Below are positions 9,232 to 44,018 of a stretch of DNA of 64,000 nt, one piece after another. Every line of letters starts with the position of its first letter. Positions within the stretch are counted from its first letter, which is position 1. Both the position numbers and the translations under genes were made by a program. Under the pieces are notes generated by a model. That model had not been told where the DNA came from. It worked only from the letters and a program-made list of their open reading frames with translations, and did not search any database. The stretch is from Notolepis coatsorum (lineage: Eukaryota > Chordata > Actinopteri > Aulopiformes > Paralepididae), in contig OZ020589.1 in assembly GCA_963971535.1 (NCBI GenBank), positions 69,698,253 to 69,762,252 of the forward strand. The letters are read 5' to 3'.

Positions 9232-9884
9232 GAACAAATCATTTATATACATTCGTAAATTATTATTAAATCATTTATAATTATATTTGTATAATATTTA
9301 CAAATTAGTTCTACATTATCAACATTGTTTGTACTTGATTTGTTCATCATTAAATAATGTTGTTTAATGTGTAGTAACACATTTGTAGATGCTTTGAAAA
9401 ATGGATATGAAAAAACGACTATACTGTACCTCCATTTATTTGTTCATGTTCAACAAATGATTTGTTAAGACATTCATAAAACATCTATAAATCCATTGCA
9501 CGTGCTATTGTGTGCCCTAATCTAAAGTGAAGCCTATTCATCATTAACAAATGTCTAATAGTTTGTTTATTTTTGGACTTTTATGAATACACACGAAGCA
9601 ATTACCAGACTTGTCTTTTCATGTTTAACAAATGATTTGTTAAGACATTCATAAAACATCTATAAATCATTTGCAGATGCTATTGTGTGCCCTAATCTGA
9701 AGTGAAGCCTATTCATCATTAACAAATATCTAATACAGTTAATTATTTGTTAACTTTTTCATCACCTGTTACAAATGTTGTAGACAGCTTTCGGATACAC
9801 CCTTCTTTTTGACATCAAACAGTGACAGAATTAGGACTATAGATAAATGCAATTTTATTATATAAAATACATAATATGACATAT

Positions 9885-10504
9885 AGTGTAACATGGGGCA
9901 CTAGGACCCAGGAGTACCCTGGCCAGATATTGAACCTGGTGGTTCCAAACTTCTTCCATTTGTGAATGATGGAGACGACTGTGCTCGTTGGCACCTTCAA
10001 TGCTGCAGAATTTTTTTTGTACCCTTCCCCAGATATGTGCCTCGATATAATCCTGTTTTGGAGGTCTACAGACAATTCCTTGGACTTCATGGCTTGGTTT
10101 GTGCTCTGACATGCACTGTCAACTGTGGGGCCTTATATAGACGGGTTGTGTGCCTTTACAAATCATGCCCAATCAATTGAATTTACCACAGGTGGACTCC
10201 AATCACGTTGTAGAAACATCTCAAGGATGATCAGAGGAAACAGAATGGACCTGAGCTAAATTTTTAGTTGCATAGCAAACGGTGTGAATACTCATGTAGG
10301 CCTACATGTGATATTAAATCTTTTTATTTTTAATACATTTGCAAAAAATGCTAAAAATCTTTTTTCATTTTGTCATTATGGGGTATTGTGTGTAAAAGTT
10401 TGAGGCATTTTTTTTTAATCCATTTTGGAATAAGGCTGTAACAACAAAAAGTGGAAAAATGTGGAAAAAGTAAAAGGGTATGAATACTTTCCGGATGCAC
10501 TGTA
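9885..10504 (-). pseudogene. Tc1/mariner relic with transposase N-terminus
   Basis: The minus strand from 10,090 encodes MKSKELSVDLQNRII, then SGEGYKKNSAALKVPTSTV and IIHKWKKFGTTRF, the first helix-turn-helix of Tc1-like transposases that binds the terminal repeats. The protein stops near residue 55-60; the catalytic DDE domain is absent. The end at 10,502 reads tactttccggatgcactg followed by TA, a Tc1-type terminus with its TA target. The other end is truncated near 9,885. Confidence 0.85.
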
Positions 10505-10754
10505 TGTTGTGTAGACGTACTTGATGTGGTGGGTGCTAACGTTACATTTTAATTATGTGTTTGTTCCTAATGTGTGCTCAGTATATGATGAACACGAGGG
10601 TAATAATTATTTGTATTTTCAGGCTATATAGGCGCAGATACAGCCTGAAAATACAAATAATTATTACCCTTGTGTGTCGTGTCATCATCACATACCGCAA
10701 TATACTGAGCACACACATTAGGAACAACAAACACATAATTCAAATGTGACGTTA

Positions 10755-10986
10755 GCGCCCACCACATCAAGTATGTCAAGCACATGTATTTTATATGTTA
10801 ATAAATTTGCATTTATCTATAGTCCTAATTCTGTCACTGTTTGATGTCACAAAGAAGGGTGTATCCGAAAGCGCCCACCACATCAAGTATGTCATGCACA
10901 TGTATTTTATATGTTAATAAATTTGCATTTATCTATAGTCCTAATTCTGTCACTGTTTGATGTCACAAAGAAGGGTGTATCCGAAA
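10755..10986. repeat. 116-bp tandem duplication in fold-back right arm
   Basis: Copies at 10,755-10,870 and 10,871-10,986 both run from GCGCCCACCACATC to GTGTATCCGAAA, nearly identical. The left arm has only one copy. Confidence 0.92.
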
Positions 10987-11545
10987 GCTGTCTACAACAT
11001 TTGTAACAGGTGATGAAAAAGTTAACAAATAATTAACTGTATTAGACATTTGTTAATGATGAATAGGCTTCACTTCAGATTAGGGCACACATCTGCAAAT
11101 GATTTATAGATGTTTTATGAATGTCTTAACAAATCATTTGTTAAACATGAAAATACAAGTCTGGTAATTGCTTCGTATATTCATAAAAGTCCACAAATAA
11201 ACAAACTATTAGACATTTGTTAATGATGAATAGGCTTCACTTTAGATTAGGCCACACAATAGCATCTGCAAATGATTTATAGATGTTTTATGAATGTCTT
11301 AACAAATCATTTGTTGAACATGAACAAATAAATAGAGGTACAGTATAGTCGTTTTTTCATATCCATTTTTCAAAGCATCTACAAATGTGTTACTATACAT
11401 TAAACAACATTATTTAATGATGAACAAATCAAGTACAAACAATGTTGATAATGAGTTGTAAATAATGTAGAACTAATTTGTAAATGTTATACAAATATAG
11501 TTATAAATTATTTAATAATCATTTACGAATAAACAAATGATTAGC

Positions 11546-20315: not shown

Positions 20316-20933
20316 GCAGCTCCAGGCGTTATACATGATGACATCACAGGTTTGAGTTCTAGCAGGCGTTATACCTGATGACATCACAGGTTTGAGTTCT
20401 AGCAGGCGTTATACCTGATGACATCACAGGTTTGAGTTCTAGCAGGCGTTATACCTGATGACATCACAGGTTTGAGTTCTAGCAGGCGTTATACCTGATG
20501 ACATCACAGGTTTGAGTTCTAGCGCCTCCAGGCGTTATACCTGATGACATCACAGGTTGAGTTCTAGCAGGCGTTATACCTGATGACATCACAGGTTTGA
20601 GTTCTAGCAGGCGTTATACCTGATGACATCACAGGTTTGAGTTCTAGCGGCTCCAGGCGTTATACCTGATGACATCACAGGGTTGAGTTCTAGCAGCTCC
20701 AGGCGTTATACCTGATGACATCACAGATTTGAGTTCTAGCAGTCGTTATACCTGATGACATCACAGGGTTGAGTTCTAGCAGGCGTTATACCTGATGACA
20801 TCACAGGGTTGAGTTCTAGCAGGCGTTATACCTGATGACATCACAGGTTTGAGTTCTAGCAGGCGTTATACCTGATGACATCACAGGGTTGAGTTCTAGC
20901 AGGCGTTATACCTGATGACATCACAGGTTTGAG
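20316..20933. repeat. 40/46-bp minisatellite, left array
   Basis: Unit aggcgttatacctgatgaca tcacaggtttgagttctagc (40 bp) with 46-bp variants that add GGCTCC or AGCTCC. About 15 copies. The same unit in the same orientation continues at 35,381 beyond the inverted-repeat structure. Confidence 0.97.
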
Positions 20934-21632
20934 AGATTAGGGATTCACCACCACCAATTTGGAGCCCCCTGATTGGTCGAGAGGTTTAAGGGGCGGGACT
21001 TAGGGGTATGTCATACCTTATAAGGGCATATATCAATGTTTGATGGGTTGTAACCACGCCCCCTTTTTTAGATGATTTATGACCCCCTAGGGCTTCTCTG
21101 ATTGGTCGAGGATTCAATGAGGCGGGACATCCGGTTTAGGAGGCGGGACATCCGGTTTCGGAAGGGGAGGGACATCTGGTTACGGAAGGGGAGGATTTGT
21201 AAGGGGGAGGACTTCCGTTTTCAGATTTTTTCAAAATAAAAGTTTAATTTTTTTTTATCAGATTGTGTGTATTCCAAGGTTTTCAGAAAAAACATTTCAC
21301 AATATCTTCAGAAGGTATTTTGTGTGTGTGTGTATCTTCAGAATATAGTTTCACAACAATCTTAAGATTAAATGTGTGTATTCCAAGGATTAAACATTTA
21401 AACTGTGTGTGAGAATTAAGTTACAGAATTAAGAATATATGTATATCTTCAGAATAAAATACATTTTGTGTATTTCTTAAGAATGTATTCTTCTTCAGAA
21501 AGTGTTTTATTTCAAATGGTGAGTGTGTATTTCTTAAGAATGTGCATTTTCTTCCAAGTGGTTGTTCAATAGCCTCTCTGTCTGTTTGCTGTGTCTGTGT
21601 GTGTGTGTCTCTGTTCGGGGGTGTGAACATGG
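20931..21632. repeat. Left outer arm with CCAAT, GC-box and ETS-like motifs
   Basis: ctgattggtcgag (reverse CCAAT box) at 20,970-20,982 and 21,098-21,110, plus GGGGCGGGAC, repeated GGCGGGACATCCGGTTT and CCACGCCCCC. The right arm holds the same cluster inverted at 35,100-35,330. It resembles promoter-type DNA at each terminus. Confidence 0.6.
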
Positions 21633-22800
21633 CAGTGGCGAATCCTTATGGAAGCCAACGGAAGCCATGCCTCCCTAATATTAAAATATGAATTCATATC
21701 AAATATGAAATATGAAAAAAAAATATATATATATAATTTTTTTTAATATAGTTTACATTCTTTTTCATCTGTGCATCTGTGTTATAATTTTTTAATTTTT
21801 TTTGTCTCCCTCTTCTCCTTCTCACTCCCTCTAACACACTGTCAGACTCACTGTGCTCACTGCAGCTAGTATAGGAGAGAGGCAGGGGGTAGGTCTCTTT
21901 CTCCAGGCTTCCAGCATTATAGAGTCCAAATCCGATCCTAGCCAATCAGATTCGAGCTGACTGCCACACCCTAAAAGTTTAAAACGGGGCTGTGAGGAAG
22001 ACACTCAGCATATTTTCCCCTCTGCACTCTGAACATTGTATTAACCCGTAACTGTTCCCACGGGCCGAATATTGCCCCGATCCTCGCGATATTAAATCCA
22101 CGGGGACCTCTCGTCGTGCCGAAGCTTTTCCTAAATCACTTCCATCATCGAAAACGAGGGGAAAAGGTCGGCTCGCGACCTTGAAAATGTCGAGTGATTT
22201 TAAAAGCGCTGTATTAAGTGAGGCTATTATGGGATCCACGCGAGCTTTCTATCGTGGAAACATCTGGGCGTCCCGCAACTTTTACTCATTCACATGTAGC
22301 CCCGAAAATGCTTAGAAAAGGAAAACAGAAAGCGTGGAATAAACTCGCTGAAACGGAAAAGTGTCCCACGGGCGCGCCGTGATTCCGATCCGCGTGAAAA
22401 TATTCACGGCCATAGAGGAGACCGTGGGACACCTTTTTGCAATATGTGTCTCGAATTTGCTCCCACGCGGCGCGCAAAATCGTGCAAGGAAAAATCGGAC
22501 CAAAAATGAACCAATGCTCCAGCAGTATTAATGACCCTGATGTAAACAAGACAAACGTCTTTCTCTGGTCTGCATCCCCTTATACAATTGTGTGTATTGA
22601 GCCGTACTGTATTGTACCCATTCTGCAATCTGTTAAATAAATAAAAAGAAAGTTTGACTGGCCGCCGAGCCATACTGTATTGTACATGGTGACTGCTTGA
22701 CTTAAAAAAAAAAAAAAAAAAAAATATGAATAAAAATATTTAATAGTTTAAAAAAAAAAAAATTGGCTTCCCCTGTTATTTTACCCACGCGACGCCACTG
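21633..22800. mobile_element. hAT-type element inserted in left arm
   Basis: 1,168 bp. The ends cagtggcg and rc(cgccactg) are flanked by a perfect 8-bp duplication GAACATGG (21,625-21,632 and 22,801-22,808). The right arm of the host structure has the uninterrupted site. It contains a LINE 3' UTR fragment at 22,528-22,640 (same family as 7,845). No complete transposase. Confidence 0.88.
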
Positions 22801-23264
22801 GAACATGGGCCTCTCTTAGGTGCTAAAACACAGCATGGGGGCGTGAAGATTAGGGGACATGCAAACTCAACTATAGTCACATTTACAGTCATCATTCAAA
22901 TACAAATGGTTTATATCTTTGTAACATGAAAGTTAGTGTACAACATTTTACTCATAGCATATTTTTAATTCACACAATGGAAGGGGTCGCATGAACAGAA
23001 TTTAAAATATGCAATATGGCCTCCTTAACTTGCTCAATATCTGCATCCTGCAAAGAAATATTTAATCTGTATTCTCTCTCTGAGCATGCTTTGAACAAAT
23101 AATTATATAAAAAGTTATATGTGATAGTGTCCTGAAAATATAAAGTGTTGAAAAGATCCATCTATGTGGGTCTGTGTCTCTGTTCGAGGGGGTGTGTGTG
23201 TAGGGGCCCGGGTAGGTGTCAAAACACTGCATGGGGGTGTGAAAGTTTAGGGAACAAACAACCT

Positions 23265-24977
23265 CTATATATTTGCTGGTAATACTATGCATTTTACTCT
23301 AAACAAAACTAATAAAGTCTGTATTTCAGCTAACACTTTAAGTTTCAATAGTCTGGATTTAATAAATAATTCGTAGGTATGTTCTCTTGAATCTACATTG
23401 TGAACTATTCTTACTGCTCTCTTCTGTAATATAAATAAGGGCTTTATGTTGCTTTCATACGGGTTACCCCACAGTAACTCAAATATGCTAGGATGAGTGA
23501 ACAATATAATATTCGCATAGAATTATAATCAAGCACATTCTTTGCCTTGTTCAAAACAAAAAACACTCTTGGCTACCTTATTTTTTATGTACATTATATG
23601 AGGTTTCCATGTCAATTTCTCATCCAACATAACACCCAAATTTTTTTAACTCAGATACTCTTTCAATATTAACGCCGTCAATACATAATGCAGTGCTTCT
23701 CAAACTTTTTCTGTCAGGCCCCCCTTTGGCGGACCAAAATATTTTGGGCCCCCCCCCCCCCCCCTCGCCCCAACAAAATAGTCATCAAATGGGCCATGTT
23801 TAAATGTATTGATATTTGTATCGTGACCTTTCAAATTGACCCTATATTTTGTTTTCAGAGCTGTCATGGATGAAAAGCCAGCTTCACACAGATACTGTAT
23901 GTGGTGCTGAATGGTATCAACACCTTAACTGCTGCATCATGAGATACTTGGTGGGCCATGAGATGAGATACTTGGTACTCAGGACCACACTCTGAAACTA
24001 GCTCTCTAGGTGGTATCAGATGAGATTTCAAAGTTCTTCCAAGAGTTTGGATGGAGATGTGTCAGCTTTGTCTCAATGTTGTCTGTAAAGGTTTTTTTTA
24101 TCTAGAGTAACTTGGTGATCCTTTTCTGTGTTTTATTAAATAATGATTTTCAGATTTTGAGAAATGGTATTTTCATGGAGAACTGTGCAGCTGCAACAGA
24201 TAGCACTTTAGTGATAATTTTCTGTAATAAAAAAAAAAAAAACGTTTTTTTTTTTTTTTTTTTTATATATAAATCTCAGGGCCCCCCCTATCATGCCTCT
24301 GCGCCCCCCCCTGGGGGGCGCGCCCCCCACTTTGAGAAACACTGACATAATGCAACATTGTCCTTCTTTCGATTAGTGAATATCATACATTTCGTTTTTC
24401 CAAATTTAGGGATAGCTTATTGTTATTAAACCATATCGTAAGTTTACACATTTCATTTACAATGTCATCTGCAAATTTTTTAAGGTATTTTCCTGAACTG
24501 AAGAAATTTGTATCGACAGCAAATAAAACAAATTGCAATATGTTTGACATCACATATATCATTAATATATAAAATAAAAAGTATGGGCCCCAGGACCAAA
24601 CCTCGAGGGTCACCACATTCAATATTCATACATTCAGATGTGTAACCAGAGAGTTGTACATATTGTTGTCTATTTTCAAGATAGCTACTTAACCAGTTCA
24701 TCGCCACCCCGCTCACACCGTATGTTTGTAATTTAGAAATTAAAATGTGATGATCTATCGTATCAAATGCTTTTTTTAAGTCAATAAACACCCCTATTGT
24801 GTAATTCCTCTCATCTACGGTTGTGGTTATTTCTTCATATATATTCATTAAGGCTAAGGTTGTTGATCGATATACCCTGAATTCATACTGACTATCACAC
24901 AGCAGGTTATTCTTTTCAATAAAACTATCTAAGAATCTTGAATCAAGAATCATGGAAAATTGTGAAAGCAAAGACAA
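23265..24977 (-). pseudogene. LINE RT relic, copy 1
   Basis: On the minus strand: MSLLSQFSMILDSRFLDSFI, then CDSQYEFRVYRSTTLALM, GVFIDLKKAFDTIDHHIL, then FAVDTNFF and WFNNNKLSLNLEK. These are RT motifs 1 to D of a CR1/L2-like LINE. The catalytic FADD motif reads FAVD, so one metal-binding aspartate is lost. A hAT MITE at 23,691-24,344 follows, then WGNPYESNIKPLFILQKRAV from the ORF2 tail (about 23,470). Frameshift near 24,500. Non-functional. Confidence 0.87.
23691..24344. mobile_element. hAT-type MITE in LINE, copy 1
   Basis: 654 bp with ends cagtgcttctcaaac and rc(ctttgagaaacactg). A perfect 8-bp duplication ACATAATG lies at 23,683-23,690 and 24,345-24,352. C- and T-homopolymer rich, non-coding. 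Confidence 0.93.
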
Positions 24978-25796
24978 TGGTCTGTAGTTGATAAAGATGT
25001 GTTTGTCCCCAGATTTAAATAGAGGAATAATGTAGTGAATTAATAGAATTTTCCCACAGGGATGAGGTTTATCTTATCTAAGTGTGCTAGTGTTTAATAG
25101 TGTATAGGGACATAGTGTGTAATAGTGTAATATTGTCATAGTGTAGTCATATAATAGTATGTAATAGTGTTATAGTGTAATATTGTGCAAATGTGTAATC
25201 ATGCAATAGTGTAATAGTGTGTAATACTTGACTTAAAAAAAAAAAAAAAAAAAAAATATGAATAAAAATATTTAATAGTTTAAAAAAAAAAAAATTGGCT
25301 TCCCCTGTTATTTTACCCACGCGACGCCACTGGAACATGGGCCTCTCTTAGGTGCTAAAACACAGCATGGGGGCGTGAAGATTAGGGGACATGCAAACTC
25401 AACTATAGTCACATTTACAGTCATCATTCAAATACAAATGGTTTATATCTTTGTAACATGAAAGTTAGTGTACAACATTTTACTCATAGCATATTTTTAA
25501 TTCACACAATGGAAGGGGTCGCATGAACAGAATTTAAAATATGCAATATGGCCTCCTTAACTTGCTCAATATCTGCATCCTGCAAAGAAATATTTAATCT
25601 GTATTCTCTCTCTGAGCATGCTTTGAACAAATAATTATATAAAAAGTTATATGTGATAGTGTCCTGAAAATATAAAGTGTTGAAAAGATCCATCTATGTG
25701 GGTCTGTGTCTCTGTTCGAGGGGGTGTGTGTGTAGGGGCCCGGGTAGGTGTCAAAACACTGCATGGGGGTGTGAAAGTTTAGGGAACAAACAACCT

Positions 25797-27509
25797 CTAT
25801 ATATTTGCTGGTAATACTATGCATTTTACTCTAAACAAAACTAATAAAGTCTGTATTTCAGCTAACACTTTAAGTTTCAATAGTCTGGATTTAATAAATA
25901 ATTCGTAGGTATGTTCTCTTGAATCTACATTGTGAACTATTCTTACTGCTCTCTTCTGTAATATAAATAAGGGCTTTATGTTGCTTTCATACGGGTTACC
26001 CCACAGTAACTCAAATATGCTAGGATGAGTGAACAATATAATATTCGCATAGAATTATAATCAAGCACATTCTTTGCCTTGTTCAAAACAAAAAACACTC
26101 TTGGCTACCTTATTTTTTATGTACATTATATGAGGTTTCCATGTCAATTTCTCATCCAACATAACACCCAAATTTTTTTAACTCAGATACTCTTTCAATA
26201 TTAACGCCGTCAATACATAATGCAGTGCTTCTCAAACTTTTTCTGTCAGGCCCCCCTTTGGCGGACCAAAATATTTTGGGCCCCCCCCCCCCCCCCTCGC
26301 CCCAACAAAATAGTCATCAAATGGGCCATGTTTAAATGTATTGATATTTGTATCGTGACCTTTCAAATTGACCCTATATTTTGTTTTCAGAGCTGTCATG
26401 GATGAAAAGCCAGCTTCACACAGATACTGTATGTGGTGCTGAATGGTATCAACACCTTAACTGCTGCATCATGAGATACTTGGTGGGCCATGAGATGAGA
26501 TACTTGGTACTCAGGACCACACTCTGAAACTAGCTCTCTAGGTGGTATCAGATGAGATTTCAAAGTTCTTCCAAGAGTTTGGATGGAGATGTGTCAGCTT
26601 TGTCTCAATGTTGTCTGTAAAGGTTTTTTTTATCTAGAGTAACTTGGTGATCCTTTTCTGTGTTTTATTAAATAATGATTTTCAGATTTTGAGAAATGGT
26701 ATTTTCATGGAGAACTGTGCAGCTGCAACAGATAGCACTTTAGTGATAATTTTCTGTAATAAAAAAAAAAAAAACGTTTTTTTTTTTTTTTTTTTTATAT
26801 ATAAATCTCAGGGCCCCCCCTATCATGCCTCTGCGCCCCCCCCTGGGGGGCGCGCCCCCCACTTTGAGAAACACTGACATAATGCAACATTGTCCTTCTT
26901 TCGATTAGTGAATATCATACATTTCGTTTTTCCAAATTTAGGGATAGCTTATTGTTATTAAACCATATCGTAAGTTTACACATTTCATTTACAATGTCAT
27001 CTGCAAATTTTTTAAGGTATTTTCCTGAACTGAAGAAATTTGTATCGACAGCAAATAAAACAAATTGCAATATGTTTGACATCACATATATCATTAATAT
27101 ATAAAATAAAAAGTATGGGCCCCAGGACCAAACCTCGAGGGTCACCACATTCAATATTCATACATTCAGATGTGTAACCAGAGAGTTGTACATATTGTTG
27201 TCTATTTTCAAGATAGCTACTTAACCAGTTCATCGCCACCCCGCTCACACCGTATGTTTGTAATTTAGAAATTAAAATGTGATGATCTATCGTATCAAAT
27301 GCTTTTTTTAAGTCAATAAACACCCCTATTGTGTAATTCCTCTCATCTACGGTTGTGGTTATTTCTTCATATATATTCATTAAGGCTAAGGTTGTTGATC
27401 GATATACCCTGAATTCATACTGACTATCACACAGCAGGTTATTCTTTTCAATAAAACTATCTAAGAATCTTGAATCAAGAATCATGGAAAATTGTGAAAG
27501 CAAAGACAA
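25797..27509 (-). pseudogene. LINE RT relic, copy 2
   Basis: Exact repeat of the relic at 23,265-24,977, with the same FAVD substitution and the same frameshift. It arose by the tandem duplication, not by a second retrotransposition. Confidence 0.87.
26223..26876. mobile_element. hAT-type MITE in LINE, copy 2
   Basis: Duplicate of 23,691-24,344, including both ACATAATG flanks. Confidence 0.92.
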
Positions 27510-27758
27510 TGGTCTGTAGTTGATAAAGATGTGTTTGTCCCCAGATTTAAATAGAGGAATAATGTAGTGAATTAATAGAATTTTCCCACAGGGATGAGGT
27601 TTATCTTATCTAAGTGTGCTAGTGTTTAATAGTGTATAGGGACATAGTGTGTAATAGTGTAATATTGTCATAGTGTAGTCATATAATAGTATGTAATAGT
27701 GTTATAGTGTAATATTGTGCAAATGTGTAATCATGCAATAGTGTAATAGTGTGTAATA

Positions 27759-28124
27759 CTGCAATAGTTTAATACATTATTTTGTTTTATTTCCTCAAAC
27801 AGACATGTTCATGTAACTTGCATCAATCCGATCATACTTATTATAATCTATACCCTTAATTTCAGTCACCTTTCAGCCAACTGAGTTGAAGATTTGTAGC
27901 TTGGTCGTGAGTTTTTTTTTACCTACCAGATCATCTGTAGCAGGCTAAATGTGAATAAAACACATTGAAAGCCTGGTCAAGAGGCTAAAAGTGAGGTTGG
28001 GTTTCTTTTTCAGAAACAAATCGTGCTTTTTTTCTTTGAATGTCAAGGATAAACATAAATTATAAACATCTAAAACCATGAAACTGACAAATACATTTTA
28101 ACACACTCACCATAGTTAGTGTAT
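27759..28124. other. Left-arm sequence without a partner on the right
   Basis: AT-rich; not matched by 32,938-33,286 in the right arm. No gene recognised. The preceding 150 bp are degenerate AATAGTGT repeats. Confidence 0.45.
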
Positions 28125-28951
28125 AGTATGGCTAACATGTATGAAAGTAGCATAAAGCCGTTATTAGAGTTGTTGATACAATATTATAATTCATAATAAT
28201 TTTGCAGAAAAAAGCTAAATGCATAGTATTACCGGCGAGGTTGTATGCTCATAGTCCCCAGATGATTGAAAGAAATTCACTTTAAGAACTATTTAACATG
28301 AAACATCTTAAAACAAAGATGTATTATAACCATGAAAATAATACAATGTTAGGTTTTACCGTGATTATAGTGTTCACAGATAGGAATGTATCCAGGACAC
28401 ATTCAGTAACATCATTAACCCTGAACAGACTTGTGAAATCAGAGATAGGAATGTATTATTCACATTCAATTATCCAAATGTACTCAGTTTGTGTGAAATT
28501 TACTCTGTGAAATGTACTCTGCGAAAGCTCCCTGCACTGTGCAGGGTTTTACATAGGCTACTAACAAAAACAATTCATATTGTTTCAGTGATGGTCTTGT
28601 TGTTAGCTACAGGGTCGACATGTCTTATTTCTACATGAAAGATTTACTTCATTCACACAATAAATATGCTATTAGTGTAAAAATAATGTATAATATCTGG
28701 ACTGATTCACTGTATAGTGAATCCAGGGGTATACTGGATCGATTATATTTTGTTTTTATAATATTTTATAATATCAAAACATGTCTTATGTTCTATAATA
28801 TGTTCTTATATATCTACAAGTCTTATAGAATGATGTAAAAAGAGTTCTACTAATATATTTCACTTAAAAAACTTGTACAGAAAGATAAATATCCGACCCC
28901 CGGAGCCCTGTCGGAGTGTATACAGGTTCTGTACAGTATACCACATACAAA

Positions 28952-29022
28952 TCCCATATGGTCTAGCGGTAAGGATGCCCTGGTTTCAACAGGGAGGCGC
29001 GGGTTCGACTCCTGCTATGGGA
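28952..29022 (+). tRNA. tRNA-Glu (UUC), left arm
   Basis: 71 nt with a perfect 7-bp acceptor stem (TCCCATA/TATGGGA). Anticodon stem CCCTG/CAGGG around loop GTTTCAA places UUC as anticodon. The T stem is GCGGG/CCTGC with TTCGACT loop, one G-U pair. Both internal RNA polymerase III boxes are intact (TGGTCTAGCGG; GGTTCGACTCC). A TTTTT terminator follows about ten bases after the end. CCA is not encoded. An identical copy lies in the other arm. Confidence 0.93.
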
Positions 29023-29486
29023 ATAACACCTTTTTCTATACATTAATTTTTATTGTAACTGTTTGTTTGTTTTAGTGCAACACTACTGTCACCAACATCT
29101 AAGAAGGATCTGAGGTGCATTTAAGTCCTATTGATAGGTTTTTCCATACCTTTGCAAGGATATGTATGACTGTGCTACATTCATTTATTTAAAATTTTGT
29201 GGACTTTATGGTATTTTATGGTTTATTTATGATTTATTGTGATACTTCTTATTGAATTGTTTAAATATGATGTGTTTAACCCAAGGGGGCATTAATGTAT
29301 TGTAGGACCTTACAAATATGATTTGATCATGATCCTAACAAATGGTATTGTTTACATAACAGTGTTGACATTTCGAAGTTTTAAGGGGATCACATTCACA
29401 TAGCTGAACTTAAAAAAGTTAGAGAAAAGGTAGAAAGAAGCGCAGTTGTGTATATTATAATTTTTTTTATTAAAGAATATTGCAGA

Positions 29487-29811
29487 TCATGCTGTAACCT
29501 TTTTATCAATAATATAAGCGTGCATAACATCAATAATGTGATTAATATCTAAAGTTTCTAAAGACTTATGATTTTTCAGTTTAAAAGCCGTAACATCCAC
29601 TATTACGGTGTATAAACATAACAGGTGTGCTCTGTTAAAATGACCATTCATATGATCTAAAATAGTAACTAAGCCGTTTTCAGATAGAAGACTTTCATCC
29701 TCTGAGAGTGTCTCTATCATATATTGCCAATTATTTAGCAAGCCTTTCTCTCACCAGCTTCAACATATTTTCAAAAAGCCTTAAGCGCAGGCTATTGACA
29801 TTCCCGGTTAC
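29487..29811 (-). pseudogene. Left-arm partial copy of the 147-aa gene
   Basis: Encodes the same residues as 40-147 of the gene at 31,321, from LNNWQYMIETLSEDES to DKKVTA. It lacks the first 39 codons, which lie in the unique core beside the other arm, and has a 2-bp deletion near 29,752 relative to the right copy. It has no start of its own and is best seen as an arm-borne 3' fragment. Confidence 0.85.
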
Positions 29812-30392
29812 CCATCGATGTACAATTGTCCTGACAGCTCTGCGGCTGTCACTAAGGCTTTAAGAGTAGCTACTTTGATTGGGAAGTGGAGGGTATTTCT
29901 TATAGTAGGACACAGTCTCTTAACCATACCCCGGGTCGGGGATGGCAGTGATGATGTTTTGTTGGTTACATCAGCGATAGGTATTTCTTCGGGGTCAGGA
30001 TGGAATACATCAGATTCTGATGTAAGAGGGGTGTACCAGGGGCTATTAGAAGGGACATCCATACGCCTGACAGGGTTTGGCGGTGATGAATCCGGCGACG
30101 AAGTCTCCCAAGGACCCGTGTACCAGGGGCTATTACGAGGAGGGGGATCCATACACCTGACGGGGTTTGACGGTGGTGAATCCGGCGATGAAGTCTCCCA
30201 AATCGTTGCAAGAGGGCTGTAACTAGTCCTAGGGGTGTCTAGGAGGCTTTGCAATGAAAAAGTTTTAGTTGAACCATACAGGGGTACGGGTAATGTCTCA
30301 ACATCGTCAGGCGTGTATAGTGGAGACAGGCTATCTAGTGTATCCAATGCAGAGTTAGCAGGATCAGCCTCATGTGACACATACAAAGCCAT
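29808..30392 (-). CDS. 194-aa Pro/Ser-rich protein of unknown function
   Basis: I do not recognise this protein. The N-terminal 150 residues are acidic and rich in Pro, Ser and Thr, probably disordered. They contain an internal duplication: about residues 65-92 and 95-121 both read WETSSPDS...NPVR...MD...NSPWYT. The last 40 residues (KRLCPTIRNTLHFPIKVATL onward) are basic and look helical. An acidic disordered region plus a small basic domain would suit a transcriptional regulator; that is inference only. The stop codon (29,808-29,810) sits exactly at the core/arm boundary. The 201-aa gene ends 90 bp upstream in the same direction; a TTTAAAAAG box near 30,430 may be its promoter. The antisense open frame here is a shadow. 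Confidence 0.65.
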   Translation of the reverse strand: MALYVSHEADPANSALDTLDSLSPLYTPDDVETLPVPLYGSTKTFSLQSLLDTPRTSYSPLATIWETSSPDSPPSNPVRCMDPPPRNSPWYTGPWETSSPDSSPPNPVRRMDVPSNSPWYTPLTSESDVFHPDPEEIPIADVTNKTSSLPSPTRGMVKRLCPTIRNTLHFPIKVATLKALVTAAELSGQLYIDG

Positions 30393-30482
30393 GATTGCTA
30401 TCTAAAAGTACAAAATGCACTGTAAGTCTTTTTAAAGGAGGATTTAGGGTTGACACGCCCCATCCTCCGCCCCCTCGCTTGG

Positions 30483-31088
30483 TCACTCCCAATCCATCTC
30501 CTCTAAATCGTCGGCTGAATGGAGCCTTCTTCTAAAATATGCCAGGTCTGTCCTCACCTTAACCCCTTCTTTAGTAATTATTCCGCAAGTCCAAAGACAT
30601 TCTAACCAGGCCGGTACCGGTACTGAGAAGAGGATATACTCATGACTTGTATTAAGGAACCTTGAGAAGATGATTAGATTAGTCTCTACACCAAAAGCCA
30701 GAGTACTTTTTATAGATATCCGCCCGTAATACACATACCCGTAGTCTATTGAGCTTATTACCAGGGTGAATATATGCCCGTCCTTAAGCGTTCTACCCAC
30801 TAATCCATCCATAGCCTCATACGAAGCTTTATTTAGTTGCCAAAATTCACTCTCCGATAGGTCTATCTCAGATCTTCTTCCAACACCCTGGAAATTCTCC
30901 AAGGAGGTCTTGTAGAACAGAACTCTCTCAAATTTAACATCATAACAGAATCCTAGCACACCACCCCTGAGGGGCCATATCTCGGTGTAAAACACGCTAC
31001 CAAATTTGGATGGTGCAAGTAACTCGGCCTTAAAATGTGCTACTCGGGCTGACGTGCGTATAGTAGATGTAGCTAGACTGCTCGCCAT
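30483..31088 (-). CDS. 201-aa protein, possible PC4/SUB1-like ssDNA-binding domain
   Basis: An intact frame from ATG at 31,086-31,088. Predicted mixed beta/alpha: strands at about 30-66, then GRRSEIDLSESEFWQLNKA (residues 70-88) followed by a helix. This order, strands, a GR(K/R)xxIxL turn, a (Q/E)-aromatic-xxL helix, resembles the C-terminal single-stranded-DNA-binding domain of PC4/SUB1 coactivators. The match was made by eye and is weak. A second beta-rich half (about 104-165) and an acidic tail SADDLEEMDWE follow. No signal peptide or membrane segment. It starts 35-45 bp from a TATATA box and is divergent from the 147-aa gene. It may bind nucleic acid for the element. Confidence 0.6.
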   Translation of the reverse strand: MASSLATSTIRTSARVAHFKAELLAPSKFGSVFYTEIWPLRGGVLGFCYDVKFERVLFYKTSLENFQGVGRRSEIDLSESEFWQLNKASYEAMDGLVGRTLKDGHIFTLVISSIDYGYVYYGRISIKSTLAFGVETNLIIFSRFLNTSHEYILFSVPVPAWLECLWTCGIITKEGVKVRTDLAYFRRRLHSADDLEEMDWE

Positions 31089-31320
31089 TTTTCTTTCTAG
31101 GGTCTCTCTAAGAGGGAACTCTCTAAATATATAGGTTTTTATCCAACCCTGACGGCCTATATAGCGTCATACAGACCCGTCCGCAGCTTCGCCCCCACCC
31201 CCATACAGAAATACATCCACCTAGACATACACACCCACACAATCTTTTTGACAGTCACAGTCCTTGACAGAAACTTTGAAGTATCAACTGTTGTTTAAAG
31301 TATCAGGATCGTAGCAGGAA
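31089..31320. promoter_or_regulatory. Divergent promoter region of the core
   Basis: 232 bp between two diverging ATGs. The minus strand has CCTATATATTTAGAG (about 31,121-31,135) placed as a TATA box for the 201-aa gene. A second CTATATAG (31,158-31,165) could serve the plus-strand gene. C-rich stretch in the middle. Confidence 0.5.
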
Positions 31321-31764
31321 ATGGGGAATTTCTTCAGTAGGACTACCAGCTGTATTACGAGCTCTATAAACTATGATATCGCATTGCTTTTAAAACATGC
31401 TATAGCTAATAAAGTCAACGATGCCCACTTGTACACTGTAACCGGGAATGTCAATAGCCTGCGCTTAAGGCTTTTTGAAAATATGTTGAAGCTGGTGAGA
31501 GAGAAAGGCTTGCTAAATAATTGGCAATATATGATAGAGACACTCTCAGAGGATGAAAGTCTTCTATCTGAAAACGGCTTAGTTACTATTTTAGATCATA
31601 TGAATGGTCATTTTAACAGAGCACACCTGTTATGTTTATACACCGTAATAGTGGATGTTACGGCTTTTAAACTGAAAAATCATAAGTCTTTAGAAACTTT
31701 AGATATTAATCACATTATTGATGTTATGCACGCTTATATTATTGATAAAAAGGTTACAGCATGA
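31321..31764 (+). CDS. 147-aa protein with N-myristoylation motif
   Basis: MGNFFS at the N-terminus fits the myristoylation consensus (Gly2, Ser6), so membrane anchoring is plausible. The rest is predicted mostly helical. A hydrophobic stretch HLLCLYTVIVDV (about residues 101-112) preceded by FNRA faintly recalls the BH1/alpha-5 region of Bcl-2-like proteins; this is a guess to be tested, not an assignment. Residues 1-39 are in the single-copy core and 40-147 in the right arm, so the left arm holds only a 3' copy. AATAAA at 31,780-31,785 gives a poly(A) signal just after the stop. Confidence 0.62.
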   Translation: MGNFFSRTTSCITSSINYDIALLLKHAIANKVNDAHLYTVTGNVNSLRLRLFENMLKLVREKGLLNNWQYMIETLSEDESLLSENGLVTILDHMNGHFNRAHLLCLYTVIVDVTAFKLKNHKSLETLDINHIIDVMHAYIIDKKVTA

Positions 31765-32937
31765 TCTGCAATATTCTTTAATAAAAATAATTATAATATA
31801 CACAACTGCGCTTCTTTCTACCTTTTCTCTAACTTTTTTAAGTTCAGCTATGTGAATGTGATCCCCTTAAGCACAGTCATACATATCCTTGCAAAGGTAT
31901 GGAAAAACCTATCAATAGGACTTAAATGCACCTCAGATCCTTCTTAGATGTTGGTGACAGTAGTGTTGCACTAAAACAAACAAACAGTTACAATAAAACA
32001 TACCAACACATTTGCTATGTATAGAAAAAGGTGTTATTCCCATAGCAGGAGTCGAACCCGCGCCTCCCTGTTGAAACCAGGGCATCCTTACCGCTAGACC
32101 ATATGGGATTTGTATGTGGTATACTGTACAGAACCTGTATACACTCCGACAGGGCTCCGGGGGTCGGATATTTATCTTTCTGTACACGTTTTTTAAGTGA
32201 AATATATTAGTAGAACTCTTTTTACATCATTCTATAAGACTTGTAGATATATAAGAACATATTATAGAACATAAGACATGTTTTGATATTATAAAATATT
32301 ATAAAAACAAAATATAATCGATCCAGTATACCCCTGGATTCACTATACAGTGAATCAGTCCAGATATTATACATTATTTTTACACTAATAGCATATTTAT
32401 TGTGTGAATGAAGTAAATCTTTCATGTAGAAATAAGACATGTCGACCCTGTAGCTAACAACAAGACCATCACTGAAACAATATGAATTGTTTTTGTTAGT
32501 AGCCTATGTAAAACCCTGCACAGTGCAGGGAGCTTTCGCAGAGTACATTTCACAGAGTAAATTTCACACAAACTGAGTACATTTGGATAATTGAATGTGA
32601 ATAATACATTCCTATCTCTGATTTCACAAGTCTGTTCAGGGTTAATGATGTTACTGAATGTGTCCTGGATACATTCCTATCTGTGAACACTATAATCACG
32701 GTAAAACCTAACATTGTATTATTTTCATGGTTATAATACATCTTTGTTTTAAGATGTTTCATGTTAAATAGTTCTTAAAGTGAATTTCTTTCAATCATCT
32801 GGGGACTATGAGCATACAACCTCGCCGGTAATACTATGCATTTAGCTTTTTTCTGCAAAATTATTATGAATTATAATATTGTATCAACAACTCTAATAAC
32901 GGCTTTATGCTACTTTCATACATGTTAGCCATACTAT
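31438..32937. repeat. Right inner arm
   Basis: Reverse complement of the left inner arm from GTAACC at 31,438. It ends near GGCTAACATGTATG (32,920s), after which left and right differ. Confidence 0.93.
32038..32108 (-). tRNA. tRNA-Glu (UUC), right arm
   Basis: Identical over all 71 nt to the copy at 28,952-29,022, on the opposite strand. The flanks differ a little (an extra 20-odd bp 3' of the gene here), but the terminator TTTTT is kept. Identity in both arms fits gene conversion or very recent arm formation. Confidence 0.93.
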
Positions 32938-33286
32938 ACGTGGTTATGAGGAGTATTAGAGTATGAGTGTATGGAATGTTGTGCTGTTTTTGAGCACGTT
33001 TTAGTTTTCTCAGAGATGTCTTTGTTGTTTTATTGATATTTGTTGTTTTATTGCTACACGTTAACAATTCTAATGATTTTATGCTACATTCATAAACATT
33101 AACCCCTAGCCCCTTAACTCAGATATATATGTTGTGTGAATTAAATGGATGGAATTGAATGTCCATTGTACAAGTGGCCATATAGGTTAGAATAATAGAA
33201 CGTTTTATTAACCATAGCCTTTGTGAGTAGATTAAGGTTACAGTGGATTTGGGATCTGATCCGTTAATTCTAGTACCTGTTTTAAA
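32938..33286. other. Right-arm sequence without a left partner
   Basis: AT-rich, non-coding. In the left arm this place is occupied by the LINE-bearing block. Confidence 0.45.
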
Positions 33287-35377
33287 TTCTGTTCATGCGA
33301 CCCCTTCCATTGTGTGAATTAAAAATATGCTATGAGTAAAATGTTGTACACTAACTTTCATGTTACAAAGATATAAACCATTTGTATTTGAATGATGACT
33401 GTAAATGTGACTATAGTTGAGTTTGCATGTCCCCTAATCTTCACGCCCCCATGCTGTGTTTTAGCACCTAAGAGAGGCCCATGTTCACACCCCCGAACAG
33501 AGACACACACCCTTACTGACACACAGACCCACATAGACAGATCTTTTCTGTACTTATATATTCTGTACTTATATATTTTCAACACAACTCTTTAAGCTAT
33601 CATATATAGTGTAATATATGTGTAATAATTTATTTGAATAATAATACAATATATGTAATACATCCTTTTTAAAGAATCTATTTTAAATAAAAAACACTTC
33701 ACAGGACCGTATTAACGATATATTCAAACCCTAGACCCTTGCAGGCTAATGAAATGGTGCACTTTGGCACCCAAAGAGCATTAAGGGGATACATTTGTAA
33801 TTTTCTTTTGCTTAAACACAAGTGTATAAAGATTATGTCTTTATCCAAGAAACTAAAATATAGACATACATACATACATACATACATACATACATACATA
33901 CATACATACATACATACATACATACATACATACATACATACATACATACATACATACATACATACATACATACATACATACATACATACATACATACATA
34001 CATACATACATACATACATACTTATTGTGGTTACAAGTTATCACTCTTTTTTTTTCAAACAACATCAACCTATTATTCACTTGCATTTGTATTTTCTTTT
34101 ATTTAGACTTTTGCTTAAACACACTCTTCCATATGAAACTATAAAATATAGACACATTACATTTGTAATTTTCTGAACACAATTATCTAAAGATTGTGAC
34201 ATTGTATTTTACATTTGGCATTTGGAATACACAAAATGTATTTTATTCTTAATTCTGTAGCTTAGACCACATACACGCATAGCCCCACACACACACACCT
34301 TTGGGGGACTGTGAGGTCTACAGAAACGGGAAGTCGCAGGGTCATAAATCTGCTTTTGACAGGAGGTGAATACTCTAGTTTTGAGCCATCCCATTCGCTA
34401 TCGTTAAACACCCTCCTTCTATGACAGCTACGGGGGCTGTCACTTCAGAGAAGCTGCAGTGTTTTCTGAATGTAATTTCAATCTATTGAGAGGAGACAGC
34501 CTACAGTGTGGAGACAAACAGAGCACCAACAGAACACCAACAGCAAACAGACACATTTGAAATGCTTATTCTTAAGATACACTTATTCTGAACACAGATA
34601 TATTGAACATTTCTGAAGAATAATAGATTGTATTTTACATTTGGCATTTGGAATACACAAAATGTATTTTACATTTGGCATTTGGAATACACAAAATGTA
34701 TTTTATTCTTAATTCTGTAACTTAATTCTCACACACAGTTTAAATGTTTAATCTGTAAACCTTGGAATACACACATTTATTGTGAAGATACACAAATACA
34801 TATTGTGAAGATATTGTATTTTTCTGAAAAACCTTGGAATACACAAAAACATATTCTTAAGACTTTGGAATACTTATTGTGAAGATATTGTATTTTTCTT
34901 AAGACTTTTGGAATACAGAAATACATATTGTGAAAACCTTGGAATACACACAATCTGAACATTTAAAAAAAAACTTTTGAATCTAAAAAAAAAAAAAAAA
35001 AAAAGTAATCTTTTATTTCTGACAATAAAAATTTTTTTTGAAAAAAAATTAAAACTTTTATTTTGAAAAAAATCTGAAAACTCCTCCCCTTCTGTAACCA
35101 GATGTCCCTCCCCTTCCGAAACCGGATGTCCCGCCTCCTAAATCCTCGACCAATCAGAGAAGCCCTAGGGGGTCATAAATCATCTCAAAAAGGGGGCGTG
35201 GTTACAATCCATCAAACTTTGATATATTCCCTTATAAGGTATGACATACCCATAAGTCCCGCCACCTTAAACCTCTCGACCAATCAGAGGGCTCTAAAAA
35301 GGGGCGTGGCTGCAATCAATCAAACTAAAATGGGCGTGTTTTGCATAATTAGACAGGTGGTGAATCCCTAATCTCTC
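33287..35377. repeat. Right outer arm
   Basis: Matches the left outer arm inverted at 33,287-33,510 (ttctgttcatgcgacccctt onward) and about 34,540-35,377. About 1 kb between (33,515-34,530) has no left counterpart and includes the TACA microsatellite. Several imperfect copies of TTTGGAATACACAAAATG lie at 34,640-34,960. Confidence 0.85.
33864..34020. repeat. (TACA)n microsatellite
   Basis: About 39 tetranucleotide copies. It gives long artefactual frames on both strands. Confidence 0.97.
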
Positions 35378-35380
35378 TCT

Positions 35381-37506
35381 CCTGATGACATCACATGTTT
35401 GAGTTCTAGCAGGAGTTATACCTGATGACATCACAGGGTTGAGTTCTAGCAGGCGTTATACCTGATGACATCACAGGTTTGAGTTCTAGCAGCTCCAGGC
35501 GTTATACCTGATGACATCACAGGTTGAGTTCTAGCAGCTCCAGGCGTTATACCTGATGACATCACAGGTTGAGTTCTAGCAGGCGTTATACCTGATGACA
35601 TCACAGGGTTGAGTTCTAGCGGCTCCAGGCGTTATACCTGATGACATCACAGGGTTGAGTTCTAGCAGGCGTTATACCTGATGACATCACAGGGTTGAGT
35701 TCTAGCAGGCGTTATACCTGATGACATCACAGGTTTGAGTTCTAGCAGCTCCAGGAGTTATACCTGATGACATCACAGGTTGAGTTCTAGCAGCTCCAGG
35801 CGTTATACCTGATGACATCACAGGTTGAGTTCTAGCAGGCGTTATACCTGATGACATCACAGGGTTGAGTTCTAGCGGCTCCAGGCGTTATACCTGATGA
35901 CATCACAGGGTTGAGTTCTAGCAGGCGTTATACCTGATGACATCACAGGGTTGAGTTCTAGCAGGCGTTATACCTGATGACATCACAGGGTTGAGTTCTA
36001 GCAGGCGTTATACCTGATGACATCACAGGTTTGAGTTCTAGCAGCTCCAGGCGTTATACCTGATGACATCACAGGTTGAGTTCTAGCAGCTCCAGGCGTT
36101 ATACCTGATAACATCACAGGTTGAGTTCTAGCAGGCGTTATACCTGATGACATCACAGGGTTGAGTTCTAGCGGCTCCAGGCGTTATACCTGAAGACATC
36201 ACAGGGTTGAGTTCTACCTGATGACATCACAGGGTTGAGTTCTAGCAGGCGTTATACCTGATGACATCACAGGGTTGAGTTCTAGCAGGCGTTATACCTG
36301 ATAACATCACAGGGTTGAGTTCTACCTGATGACATCACAGGGTTGAGTTCTAGCAGGAGTTATACCTGATGACATCACAGGGTTGAGTTCTAGCAGGCGT
36401 TATACCTGATGACATCACAGGTTTGAGTTCTAGCAGCTCCAGGCGTTATACCTGATGACATCACAGGTTGAGTTCTAGCAGCTTCAGGCGTTATACCTGA
36501 TGACATCACAGGTTGAGTTCTAGCAGGCGTTATACCTGATGACATCACAGGGTTGAGTTCTAGCGGCTCCAGGCGTTATACCTGATGACATCACAGGGTT
36601 GAGTTCTAGCAGGCGTTATACCTGATGACATCACAGGGTTGAGTTCTAGCAGGCGTTATACCTGATGACATCACAGGGTTGAGTTCTAGCAGGCGTTATA
36701 CCTGATGACATCACAGGTTTGAGTTCTAGCAGCTCCAGGAGTTATACCTGATGACATCACAGGTTGAGTTCTAGCAGCTCCAGGCGTTATACCTGATGAC
36801 ATCACAGGTTGAGTTCTAGCAGGCGTTATACCTGATGACATCACAGGATTGAGTTCTAGCGGCTCCAGGCGTTATACCTGATGACATCACAGGGTTGAGT
36901 TCTAGCAGGCGTTATACCTGATGACATCACAGGGTTGAGTTCTAGCAGGCGTTATACCTGATGACATCACAGGGTTGAGTTCTAGCAGGCGTTATACCTG
37001 ATGACATCACAGGTTTGAGTTCTAGCAGCTCCAGGCGTTATACCTGATGACATCACAGGTTGAGTTCTAGCAACTCCAGGCGTTATACCTGATAACATCA
37101 CAGGTTGAGTTCTAGCAGGCGTTATACCTGATGACATCACAGGGTTGAGTTCTAGCGGCTCCAGGCGTTATACCTGAAGACATCACAGGATTGAGTTCTA
37201 CCTGATGACATCACAGGGTTGAGTTCTAGCAGGCGTTATAACTGATGACATCACAGGGTTTAGTTCTAGCAGGCGTTATACCTGATGACACCACAGAGTG
37301 GGGTTCTACCTGATGACATCACAGGGTTGAGTTCTAGCAGGCGTTATACCTGATGACATCACAGGGTTGAGTTCTAGCAGGCGTTATACCTGATGACATC
37401 ACAGGGTTGAGTTCTAGCGGCTCCAGGCGTTATACCTGATGACATCATAGGGTTAAGTTTTAGCAGGCGTTATACCTGATGACATCACAGGGTTGAGTTC
37501 TAGCAC
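35381..37506. repeat. 40/46-bp minisatellite, right array with higher-order pattern
   Basis: About 50 copies of the unit seen at 20,316. The 40-bp and 46-bp forms (AGCTCC or GGCTCC added) alternate in a pattern that recurs about every 300 bp, near 35,470, 35,740, 36,030, 36,430, 36,730 and 37,020. Several units are cut short to TTCTACCTGATGAC. Confidence 0.96.
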
Positions 37507-41610: not shown

Positions 41611-44018
41611 TTATTCTACCACAGTAGCCACCCTCTATTCTACCACAGTGTAGCCACCCTCTATTCTACCACACCACAGTGTAGCCACCCTCTATTCTAC
41701 CACACCACAGTGTAGCCACCCTCGATTCTACCACAGTGTAGCCACCCTCTATTCTACCACAGTGTAGCCAGGCTCTAGTCTACCACAGTGTAGCCACCCT
41801 CTATTCTACCACAGTGTAGCCAGGCTCTATTCTACCACAGTGTAGCCAGGCTCTAGTCTACCACAGTGTAGCCACCCTCTATTCTACCACAGTGTAGCCA
41901 GGCTCTATTCTACCACAGTGTAGCCAGGCTCTAGTCTACCACAGTGTAGCCACCCTCTATTCTACCACAGTGTAGCCAGGCTCTATTCTACCACAGTGTA
42001 GCCAGGCTCTAGTCTACCACAGTGTAGCCACCCTCTATTCTACCACAGTGTAGCCAGGCTCTATTCTACCACAGTGTAGCCACACTCTATTCTACCACAG
42101 TGTAGCCACCCTCTATTCTACCACAGTGTAGCCACCCTCTATTCTACCACAGTGTAGCCACCCTCTATTCTACCACAGTGTAGCCAGGCTCTATTCTACC
42201 ACAGTGTAGCCACCCTCAATTCTACCACAGTGTAGCCAGGCTCTATTCTACCACAGTGTAGCCACCCTCTATTCTACCACAGTGTAGCCACCCTCTATTC
42301 TACCACAGTGTAGCCACCCTCAATTCTACCACAGTGTAGCCACCCTCGATTCTACCACAGTGTAGTCAGGCTCTATTCTACCACAGTGTAGCCACCCTAT
42401 ATTCTACCACAGTGTAGCCAGGCTCTAGTCTACCACAGTGTAGCCACCCTCTATTCTACCACAGTGTAGCCACCCTCTATTCTACCACAGTGTAGCCAGG
42501 CTCTATTCTACCACAGTGTAGCCACCCTCTATTCTACCACAGTGTAGCCACCCTCTATTCTACCACAGTGTAGCCACCCTCTATTCTACCACAGTGTAGC
42601 CACCCTCTAGTCTACCACAGTGTAGCCACCCTCTATTCTACCACAGTGTAGCCACCCTCTATTCTACCACAGTGTAGCCAGGCTCTATTCTACCACAGTG
42701 TAGCCACCCTCTATTCTACCACAGTGTAGCCACCCTCTATTTTACCACAGTGTAGCCACCCTCTATTCTACCACAGTGTAGCCAGGCTCTATTCTACCAC
42801 AGTGTAGCCACCCTCTATTCTACCACAGTGTAGCCACCCTCTATTCTACCACAGTGTAGCCACACTCTATTCTACCACAGTGTAGCCAGGCTCTATTCTA
42901 CCACAGTGTAGCCACACTCTATTCTACCACAGTGTAGCCACCCTCTATTCTACCACAGTGTAGCCACCCTCTATTCTACCACAGTGTAGCCAGGCTCTAT
43001 TCTACCACAGTGTAGCCACCCTCTATTCTACCACAGTGTAGCCACACTCTATTCTACCACAGTGTAGCCACCCTCTATTCTACCACAGTGTAGCCAGGCT
43101 CTATTCTACCACAGTGTAGCCACCCTCTATTCTACCACAGTGTAGCCACCCTCTATTCTACCATAGTGTAGCCACCCTCAATTCTACCACAGTGTAGCCA
43201 CCCTCTATTCTACCATAGTGTAGCCACCCTCTATTCTACCACAGTGTAGCCACCCTCTATTCTACCACAGTGTAGCCACCCTCTATTCTACCACAGTGTA
43301 GCCACACTCTATTCTACCACAGTGTAGCCACCCTCTATTCTACCACAGTGTAGCCAGGCTCTATTCTACCACAGTGTAGCCAGGCTTTATTCTACCACAG
43401 TGTAGCCACCCTCTATTCTACCACAGTGTAGCCACCCTCTATTCTACCACAGTGTAGCCACACTCTATTCTACCACAGTGTAGCCACCCTCTATTCTACC
43501 ACAGTGTAGTCAGGCTTTATTCTACCACAGTGTAGCCAGGCTCTATTCTACCACAGTGTAGCCAGGCTCTATTCTACCACAGTGTAGCCACCCTCTATTC
43601 TACCACAGTGTAGCCACCCTCTATTCTACCACAGTGTAGCCACCCTCTATTCTACCACAGTGTAGCCAGGCTCTATTCTACCACAGTGTAGCCACACTCT
43701 ATTCTACCACAGTGTAGCCAGGCTTTATTCTACCACAGTGTAGCCACCCTAGTCTATACCACAGTGTAGCCACCCTCTATTCTACCACAGTGTAGCCAGG
43801 CTTTATTCTACCACAGTGTAGCCACACTCTATTCTACCACAGTGTAGCCAGGCTTTATTCTACCACAGTGTAGCCACCCTCTATACCACAGTGTAGCCAC
43901 CCTCTATTCTACCACAGTGTAGCCACCCTCTATACCACAGTGTAGCCACACTCTATTCTACCACAGTGTAGCCAGGCTTTATTCTACCACAGTGTAGCCA
44001 CCCTCTATTATACCACTG
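41611..44018. repeat. 26-bp minisatellite in abca1 intron 1
   Basis: Unit tattctaccacagtgtagcc plus ACCCTC, about 92 copies over 2.4 kb. Three main variants differ after GTAGCC: ACCCTC, AGGCTC and ACACTC. Near the start ACCCTC-AGGCTC-AGGCTC groups recur as a 78-bp higher-order unit (41,750-42,060). The period is not a multiple of three, and stops occur. Confidence 0.98.

Follow-up and report, generated by a model that had tools for sequence, protein, structure and literature searches.

Among the described systems, the closest to the locus presented here are the Mavericks or Polintons. In vertebrates they are marked by (AG)3//(CT)3 end motifs and perfect 6-bp target duplications, and the sections of a 2021 survey that treat these elements give terminal repeats of 46-1,447 bp, argue for a constrained genome size, hold that replication proceeds by protein priming and state that particles have not been observed to date (PMC8097293). 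Here we describe an element from the genome of Notolepis coatsorum (assembly GCA_963971535.1), found in a window of 64,000 nucleotides (contig OZ020589.1, positions 69,698,253 to 69,762,252 of the forward strand), to which all positions without a prefix refer. The element occupies 20932-35380 (14,449 bp) within a 40-bp minisatellite, and we consider it probable that it is a palindromic, non-autonomous derivative of the Mavericks residing in the same genome, likely replicated and integrated, and possibly also packaged, by their proteins.

The initial annotation of this DNA had described reverse-complementary ends with long arms, two large homologous blocks around a unique core of 1.63 kb, three protein genes without a recognised family, tRNA genes, and a position of the whole unit inside one minisatellite. 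The alignments of the arms bear this description out (Table 1), the element was correctly seen, and only its proposed bounds, 20931-35377, had to be shifted to those given above. The minisatellite flanks the element on both sides (20323-20933 and 35381-37505). The inner arms align in four main gapless blocks with 2 mismatches in 1,489 positions (1/923, 0/129, 1/372 and 0/65 per block, two of the four blocks overlapping by 6 bp in this total) and enclose a core of 1,626 bp; further outwards, 22801-23007 and 33280-33486 are identical at 207/207 positions, and the outermost parts are more diverged, with 14/233 positions mismatched in three blocks (8/130, 4/69 and 2/34). The core and its edge hold three open reading frames of 194, 201 and 147 amino acids (aa), none of which has a Pfam match at E<=10, and each inner arm carries a tRNA-Glu(TTC) gene. 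An insertion confined to the left arm, which we take to be hAT-like from the features known of hAT elements, is flanked by the 8-bp target duplication GAACATGG at 21625-21632 and 22801-22808.

The connection to Mavericks is carried first by the ends. Across the 3.42 Gb of the host assembly searched, PolB (PF03175) has at least 141 matches (82 of 244 candidates scored), ten loci with frames of 1,401-1,407 aa being among them, several with identical scores, and Mavericks have probably been active in this host recently. One intact-looking Maverick, C21:12017867-12033388 (15,522 bp, read in separate pieces), is bordered by the target duplication GGCCTC and has terminal repeats of 1.05 kb which are 97.9% identical. 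Its protease and integrase are recognised by Pfam, its capsid and PW genes are labelled by gene position alone, and between integrase and terminus lie two further frames of 241 aa and 205 aa (the latter a piece). Its gene order of integrase, 272, 156, 435 and protease is that of the second module of vertebrate Mavericks, as the survey's account of gene modules presents it (PMC8097293). The terminal repeat of this Maverick matches both ends of the element in the window (E down to 7e-39), the left one in four blocks at 83-91% and the right one in five blocks at 75-86%, as well as the first ~570 bp of the arm of a palindromic relative, the C45 copy (71-91% in blocks, E down to 1.5e-76). The (AG)n//(CT)n end motifs are present in the relatives and at the right end of the window copy; its left end is slightly truncated, the outermost few bases and a portion of the terminal repeat being lost.

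A search for the end pattern, covering one group of end sequences (a reversed control gave zero sites), returned 45 sites and 20 inverted pairs in the host genome. Three pairs include a PolB match (15,522, 15,591 and 15,689 bp), 15 include matches to the core genes, and two include neither (14,465 and 48,429 bp). The 27-bp ends of the three PolB-bearing Mavericks recur letter for letter on core-gene pairs, and so does each of their end types GT/G, GT/A and AA/A. The core-gene pairs are defined by ends and gene matches, palindromic arms not having been read in them; seven of the 15 measure 14.2-14.9 kb (14,219, 14,265, 14,328, 14,418, 14,485, 14,806 and 14,851 bp), and the longer ones (15,080, 16,111, 17,119, 18,026, 20,324, 20,918, 26,130 and 26,744 bp) may carry later insertions. 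This lower size bound, close to the size of the Mavericks (15.5-15.7 kb), suggests that the element could be packaged in helper capsids. The predominance of short non-coding copies that would mark a non-autonomous transposon like a miniature inverted-repeat transposable element is not seen: the shortest of the 20 pairs, all of one end group, spans 14,219 bp, and open frames are kept. The 48.4-kb pair, C21:78227377-78275805, with ends of the same type and neither a listed core gene nor PolB inside, may be a nested copy or a larger relative.

The second line of evidence is the gene content. Nine Maverick protein queries, each of which matched its own Maverick piece as a control, were compared with seven palindromic copies, three of them full-length (window, C45, C21) and four in part (C3, C6, C1a and C45b, L027 and L028 of C45b being left out). 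The 205-aa piece matches the 201-aa gene in 7/7 copies at 36-51% by stretch (37.7% over 204 columns in the window). The 241-aa protein matches a single copy, C45b (55% over 256 columns; 63% over 187); the 194-aa gene of the window has no direct match to it and likely is a truncated relative expanded by proline-rich repeats. In these same seven copies no match was found for PolB (425-aa piece), integrase, protease, the 435-, 272- and 156-aa queries including the capsid-position one, or a 246-aa protein of no named family. Because the PolB, integrase, protease and capsid-position queries are unmatched, the element is, judged from its sequence, a Maverick derivative and not an autonomous Maverick; and because it combines Maverick ends and an accessory gene with the lack of polymerase and integrase genes, we infer that it depends on a helper and likely is a satellite. 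Two components seem to be its own: neither the gene overlapping the core edge, hereafter the 154-aa gene, nor the tRNA-Glu gene was found in the Maverick pieces searched (about 12 of 15.5 kb).

The element belongs to a large family. In the host genome, the core DNA has at least 102 matches (40 of 412 candidates scored), the 201-aa gene at least 151 (150 of 530) and the 154-aa gene at least 150 (150 of 734). Among the matches listed, 133/150 to the 201-aa gene are free of stops, some of them partial, and 19 have one identical score, which suggests a recent burst; for the 154-aa gene, 148/150 are free of stops and all are at least 93% identical to the window. The outer 278 bp have at least 52 matches (40 of 1,198 candidates scored); of the 40 best, 22 have a listed core-gene match no more than 15 kb away. 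Four further palindromic copies were read at both flanks, all starting with AGAGAG: C45:33207989-33222392 (14,404 bp, target duplication CATATC), C21:80537795-80552342 (14,548 bp, ATTGCT), a C27 copy (14,459 bp, GTGGGG) and C45b, C45:59994140-60026479 (32,340 bp, CATGTC), whose interior holds long retroelement-like frames, recognised by eye, and whose 201-aa protein is 49% identical to that of the window. A 6-bp target duplication is thus found in four of the five copies read, the window copy being the fifth. At some loci (C7:184815910, C29:103988227 and similar) the 201-aa gene occurs in another form, a second subfamily of about 67-70% identity whose frames are longer; L046 and L047 appear to be mosaics of it with the main type, which suggests recombination.

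With its Maverick ends, 6-bp duplications and accessory genes, the element agrees with the proposal of the initial annotation that it is a non-autonomous derivative of a virus-like element. The parent is no longer an unknown one, being the Maverick/Polinton of the same genome, and the alternative proposal of a new class of fold-back element gives way to the same three features. Polymerase, integrase and capsid-position genes are indeed unmatched, as had been noted; setting Mavericks aside on that ground was mistaken. It had also been cautioned that the ends might not be common to other copies, or that the arms might be an assembly fold-back. Neither proved to be the case: the relatives have the same ends, and the arms are not an assembly fold-back, since the core and its genes occur at many sites, four other copies are bordered by 6-bp duplications, and in most of the copies compared one arm is not identical to the other.

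The relation between the two arms is informative about the way the palindrome is maintained. The arms differ at 8/6,344 positions in the C45 copy and at 6/6,420 in the C21 copy, as compared with 141/6,268 between these copies, that is, the ~6.4-kb arms are 99.9% identical within a copy and 97.7% between the two. In a tree of the inner arm piece (15 copies), left and right arms are sisters in 9/9 copies with both arms usable; divergence within copies is 0-1.6%, and the nearest other copy is 1.35-4.3% away. Since own arms as a rule are closer than arms of different copies, one arm probably served as the template for the other prior to insertion, with a folded single strand as the likeliest intermediate. 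The C45 and C21 copies have reverse-transcriptase pieces at mirrored positions in both arms, and the window copy has them in one arm; for the mirrored ones, one insertion copied across to the opposite arm is a much more likely origin than two insertions. The best-placed rival would see in the element a Maverick-derived transposon which exists as DNA only, uses the helper integrase and has no satellite-virus life cycle, its arms being kept alike after insertion by gene conversion in the chromosome. It would account for the near-identical inner arms of the window beside the differing outer arms and one-sided insertions, and for the fact that five of the eight arm mismatches of the C45 copy fall into the outermost 500 columns. 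However, in five of the nine copies the arms are 1.3-1.6% apart, a drift to be expected where insertion fixes the starting identity, and two full-length copies are about 99.9% identical across the whole arm; we therefore regard this rival as unlikely.

The edge of the palindrome speaks to the history of the family. In 5/14 loci its distance behind the ATG of the 154-aa gene is exactly 117 nt; in the other nine, where mismatches may have shortened the exact match, it is 122-151 nt. A single origin of the edge seems likely, because the set of loci includes the distant C45b copy. One could suppose instead that these are ordinary, decaying defective Mavericks that became palindromic independently many times, without a continuing lineage; PolB matches are abundant in this host, and defective copies are common in vertebrates according to the survey's treatment of them (PMC8097293). 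Against this stand an edge that in 14/14 loci, C45b among them, could be one and the same, 117 nt into the 154-aa gene, the high copy number and the many open frames, which together leave the supposition very improbable. In one copy, C8:121160876-121175955, the 201-aa and 154-aa genes are each listed twice in opposite orientation, and arms apparently can grow into the core; the 201-aa gene occurs twice likewise at C24:52452747/52453891.

The core genes have no relatives in the protein collection or the viral contigs searched. For the 201-aa protein there is a weak lead to a PC4/PUR-like single-strand DNA-binding fold. The 154-aa protein, for which a Bcl-2-like lead was noted, has an all-helical model of low confidence that gave no significant fold match. 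The latter protein has 153 residues in most relatives read, and its final residues differ in the window copy. The interval between the two genes likely is their divergent promoter, judging from its TATA-like stretches. On a tree of 30 sequences of the 201-aa gene, open frames only, the omega-like value is 0.71 for internal branches (8/1,000 simulations as low) and 0.80 for terminal ones (37/1,000), which weakly suggests purifying selection; the ratio of non-synonymous to synonymous substitution (dN/dS) is 0.43-0.72 in six comparisons against the window copy and about 1.1 in 19 pairs with dS <0.03. The 154-aa gene gives a ratio of non-synonymous to synonymous differences (pN/pS) of 0.36 (11/13 frames, two short ones dropped), and its tree test is non-significant (101/1,000 and 68/1,000 simulations). 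The tRNA-Glu gene is called in 9/15 copies and differs by a pairwise mean of 4.2%, as against 13-17% in its flanks (one arm each of the nine copies bearing it). Five other copies (L025, L034-L037) have a common deletion which leaves the last 25 bp (3' end) of the gene, and have probably lost it. That the three core genes, for all their want of Pfam, protein-collection or viral-contig relatives, should include the replication and integration proteins of an autonomous new virus-like class is scarcely credible, given ends common to three PolB-bearing Mavericks, the kinship of the 201-aa gene and of its C45b neighbour to accessory genes of a Maverick bearing PolB and integrase, and the low-confidence, all-helical 154-aa model without a significant fold match.

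Returning to the derivative of co-resident Mavericks, its cycle could be pictured as follows. The helper PolB would start protein-primed synthesis at either end, and the displaced single strand would form a hairpin, its 6.4-kb arms pairing as the stem and 1.6-1.7 kb remaining as the loop; the end of this stem would be a complete origin. Copying and repair in the hairpin would restore arm identity and lost ends in each cycle, and an insertion in one arm would by the same copying become an insertion in both. The product would next be inserted by the integrase of the helper, a 6-bp duplication being created, and from that point on the arms would diverge in the manner of the long terminal repeats (LTRs) of retroelements. 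Filler in the arms would maintain a genome length close to that of the helper, a condition for being packaged in its capsids, and the genes still present would serve the satellite by acting on helper or host. A panhandle duplication in adenovirus, reportedly described in a 1988 paper, is a known parallel to the proposed hairpin.

Going further, and tentatively, one may see here a long-lived endogenous satellite-virus lineage in an animal genome, which parasitises its own Maverick ancestor: it would have dropped most genes, turned into near-perfect palindromes that refill themselves as single strands, let its ends track those of the co-resident Mavericks, kept a particle-size length with mirrored filler, and aimed its accessory and private genes at helper or host. 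Several observations weigh against the derivative and satellite interpretation. More than half of the core-gene pairs (8/15) are longer than 14.9 kb, and short copies with other end groups could escape a pattern built on one group. In the C4a copy a foreign arm is nearer (1.35%) than the own second arm (1.52%), and in C4b a foreign arm (1.48%) is nearly as near as the own one (1.35%). The window copy has no readable target duplication, and its pattern of diverged outer arms, one-sided insertions and one-sided reverse-transcriptase pieces beside near-identical inner arms also fits conversion in the chromosome. Selection is weak for the 201-aa gene and non-significant for the 154-aa gene; the sets behind these values include open frames exclusively, and the intactness of frames may largely be a sign of youth. 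None of the Maverick pieces was recognised as ATPase, PM or PZ, and no query was aimed at these. It should also be noted that helper dependence, packaging and the folded intermediate are deduced rather than observed.

Table 1. Features of the palindromic element, in window coordinates
Feature	Position	Strand	Basis or remark
Whole palindromic element	20932..35380	.	Inserted in a 40-bp minisatellite; ends common to relatives
Left terminal inverted repeat / outer left arm	20932..21632	+	End slightly truncated (AGAGATTAGGG...)
hAT-like insertion (presumed), left arm only	21633..22800	.	CAGTGGCG...CGCCACTG
2,532-bp unit, two tandem copies, left arm only	22696..27760	.	99.96% identical
Reverse-transcriptase remnant, first tandem copy	24480..24977	-	RVT_1; like a long interspersed nuclear element (LINE) by eye
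Same reverse-transcriptase remnant, second tandem copy	27012..27509	-	Tandem repeat
Inner left arm	28121..29811	+	Sister of right arm in tree
tRNA-Glu(TTC) gene, left arm	28952..29023	+	
194-aa proline-rich gene	29808..30392	-	Stands where the Maverick has its 241-aa accessory gene
Unique core between arms	29812..31437	.	1,626 bp
201-aa gene	30483..31088	-	Homologue of Maverick accessory gene adjoining the terminus
Likely divergent promoter region of 201-aa and 154-aa genes	31089..31320	.	Predicted from TATA-like stretches
Private gene, 147-aa window version (the 154-aa gene)	31321..31764	+	Codons 1-39 in core, rest in right arm
Inner right arm	31438..32939	-	Without 204 nt found at 29177-29380 of left arm
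tRNA-Glu(TTC) gene, right arm	32037..32108	-	
Right terminal inverted repeat / outer right arm	33479..35380	-	AGAGAGAGATTAGGGATTCACCACCTGTC inward from 35380
(ACAT)n array, right arm only	33864..34021	+	

Other repeats share the window with the element. A Gypsy-like pol remnant at 1444-5146 shows aspartyl protease, RVT_1, RNase H and integrase domains in three reading frames, and a 94% direct repeat around it (421-619/5259-5451) could represent its LTRs. A second inverted repeat lies at 9237-11542 (9237-9872 against 10900-11542 at 93%) and includes an inner self-palindrome at 10514-10777. On the other side of the element, a minisatellite with a 26-bp unit extends over 41612-44016 in about 92 copies.

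If the element is indeed a helper-dependent satellite, which has kept ends, size and accessory genes and lost the machinery, it would indirectly indicate that the Mavericks of this host operate a replication system, and perhaps a packaging system, that others can share. It would also exemplify cheating among endogenous DNA viruses in nature, and the arms would serve as a clock for insertion age and as a record of end repair in protein-primed linear genomes. Palindromic or satellite vertebrate Mavericks are not described in the titles and opening parts of abstracts that made up the literature searched, with subscription journals and preprints outside it. The Maverick family as such is known; what is new to us is its palindromic form, together with the apparent parasitism on the own parent and the proposed life cycle with mirrored arms.

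With Mavericks (adintovirus-like), the element has in common the (AG)n//(CT)n ends, the 6-bp duplication, a homologous terminal repeat and accessory genes beside the integrase end. It differs from them in the lack of a match for PolB, integrase, protease and four further Maverick proteins, in consisting nearly entirely of an inverted repeat, with arms of about 6.4 kb in two relatives, and in its additional private 154-aa gene and tRNA gene. Palindromic defective adenovirus genomes, such as the symmetric recombinants which carry host DNA in their arms, arose in culture; like these, the element has a viral end at both termini, mirrored filler of host origin and a protein-primed parent, but it forms a germline lineage with many copies and diverging genes of its own. 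Virophages have capsid genes of their own and parasitise giant viruses. The element resembles them and satellite viruses in its small gene set and likely dependence on the proteins of another DNA virus, whereas it would parasitise its own parent and, in the seven copies compared, has no match to the Maverick capsid-position gene. Fold-back transposons, finally, have long inverted arms around a short gene-bearing centre, and so does this element; what sets it apart from them are its Maverick-type ends and target duplications, and arms which begin with an enlarged Maverick terminal repeat.

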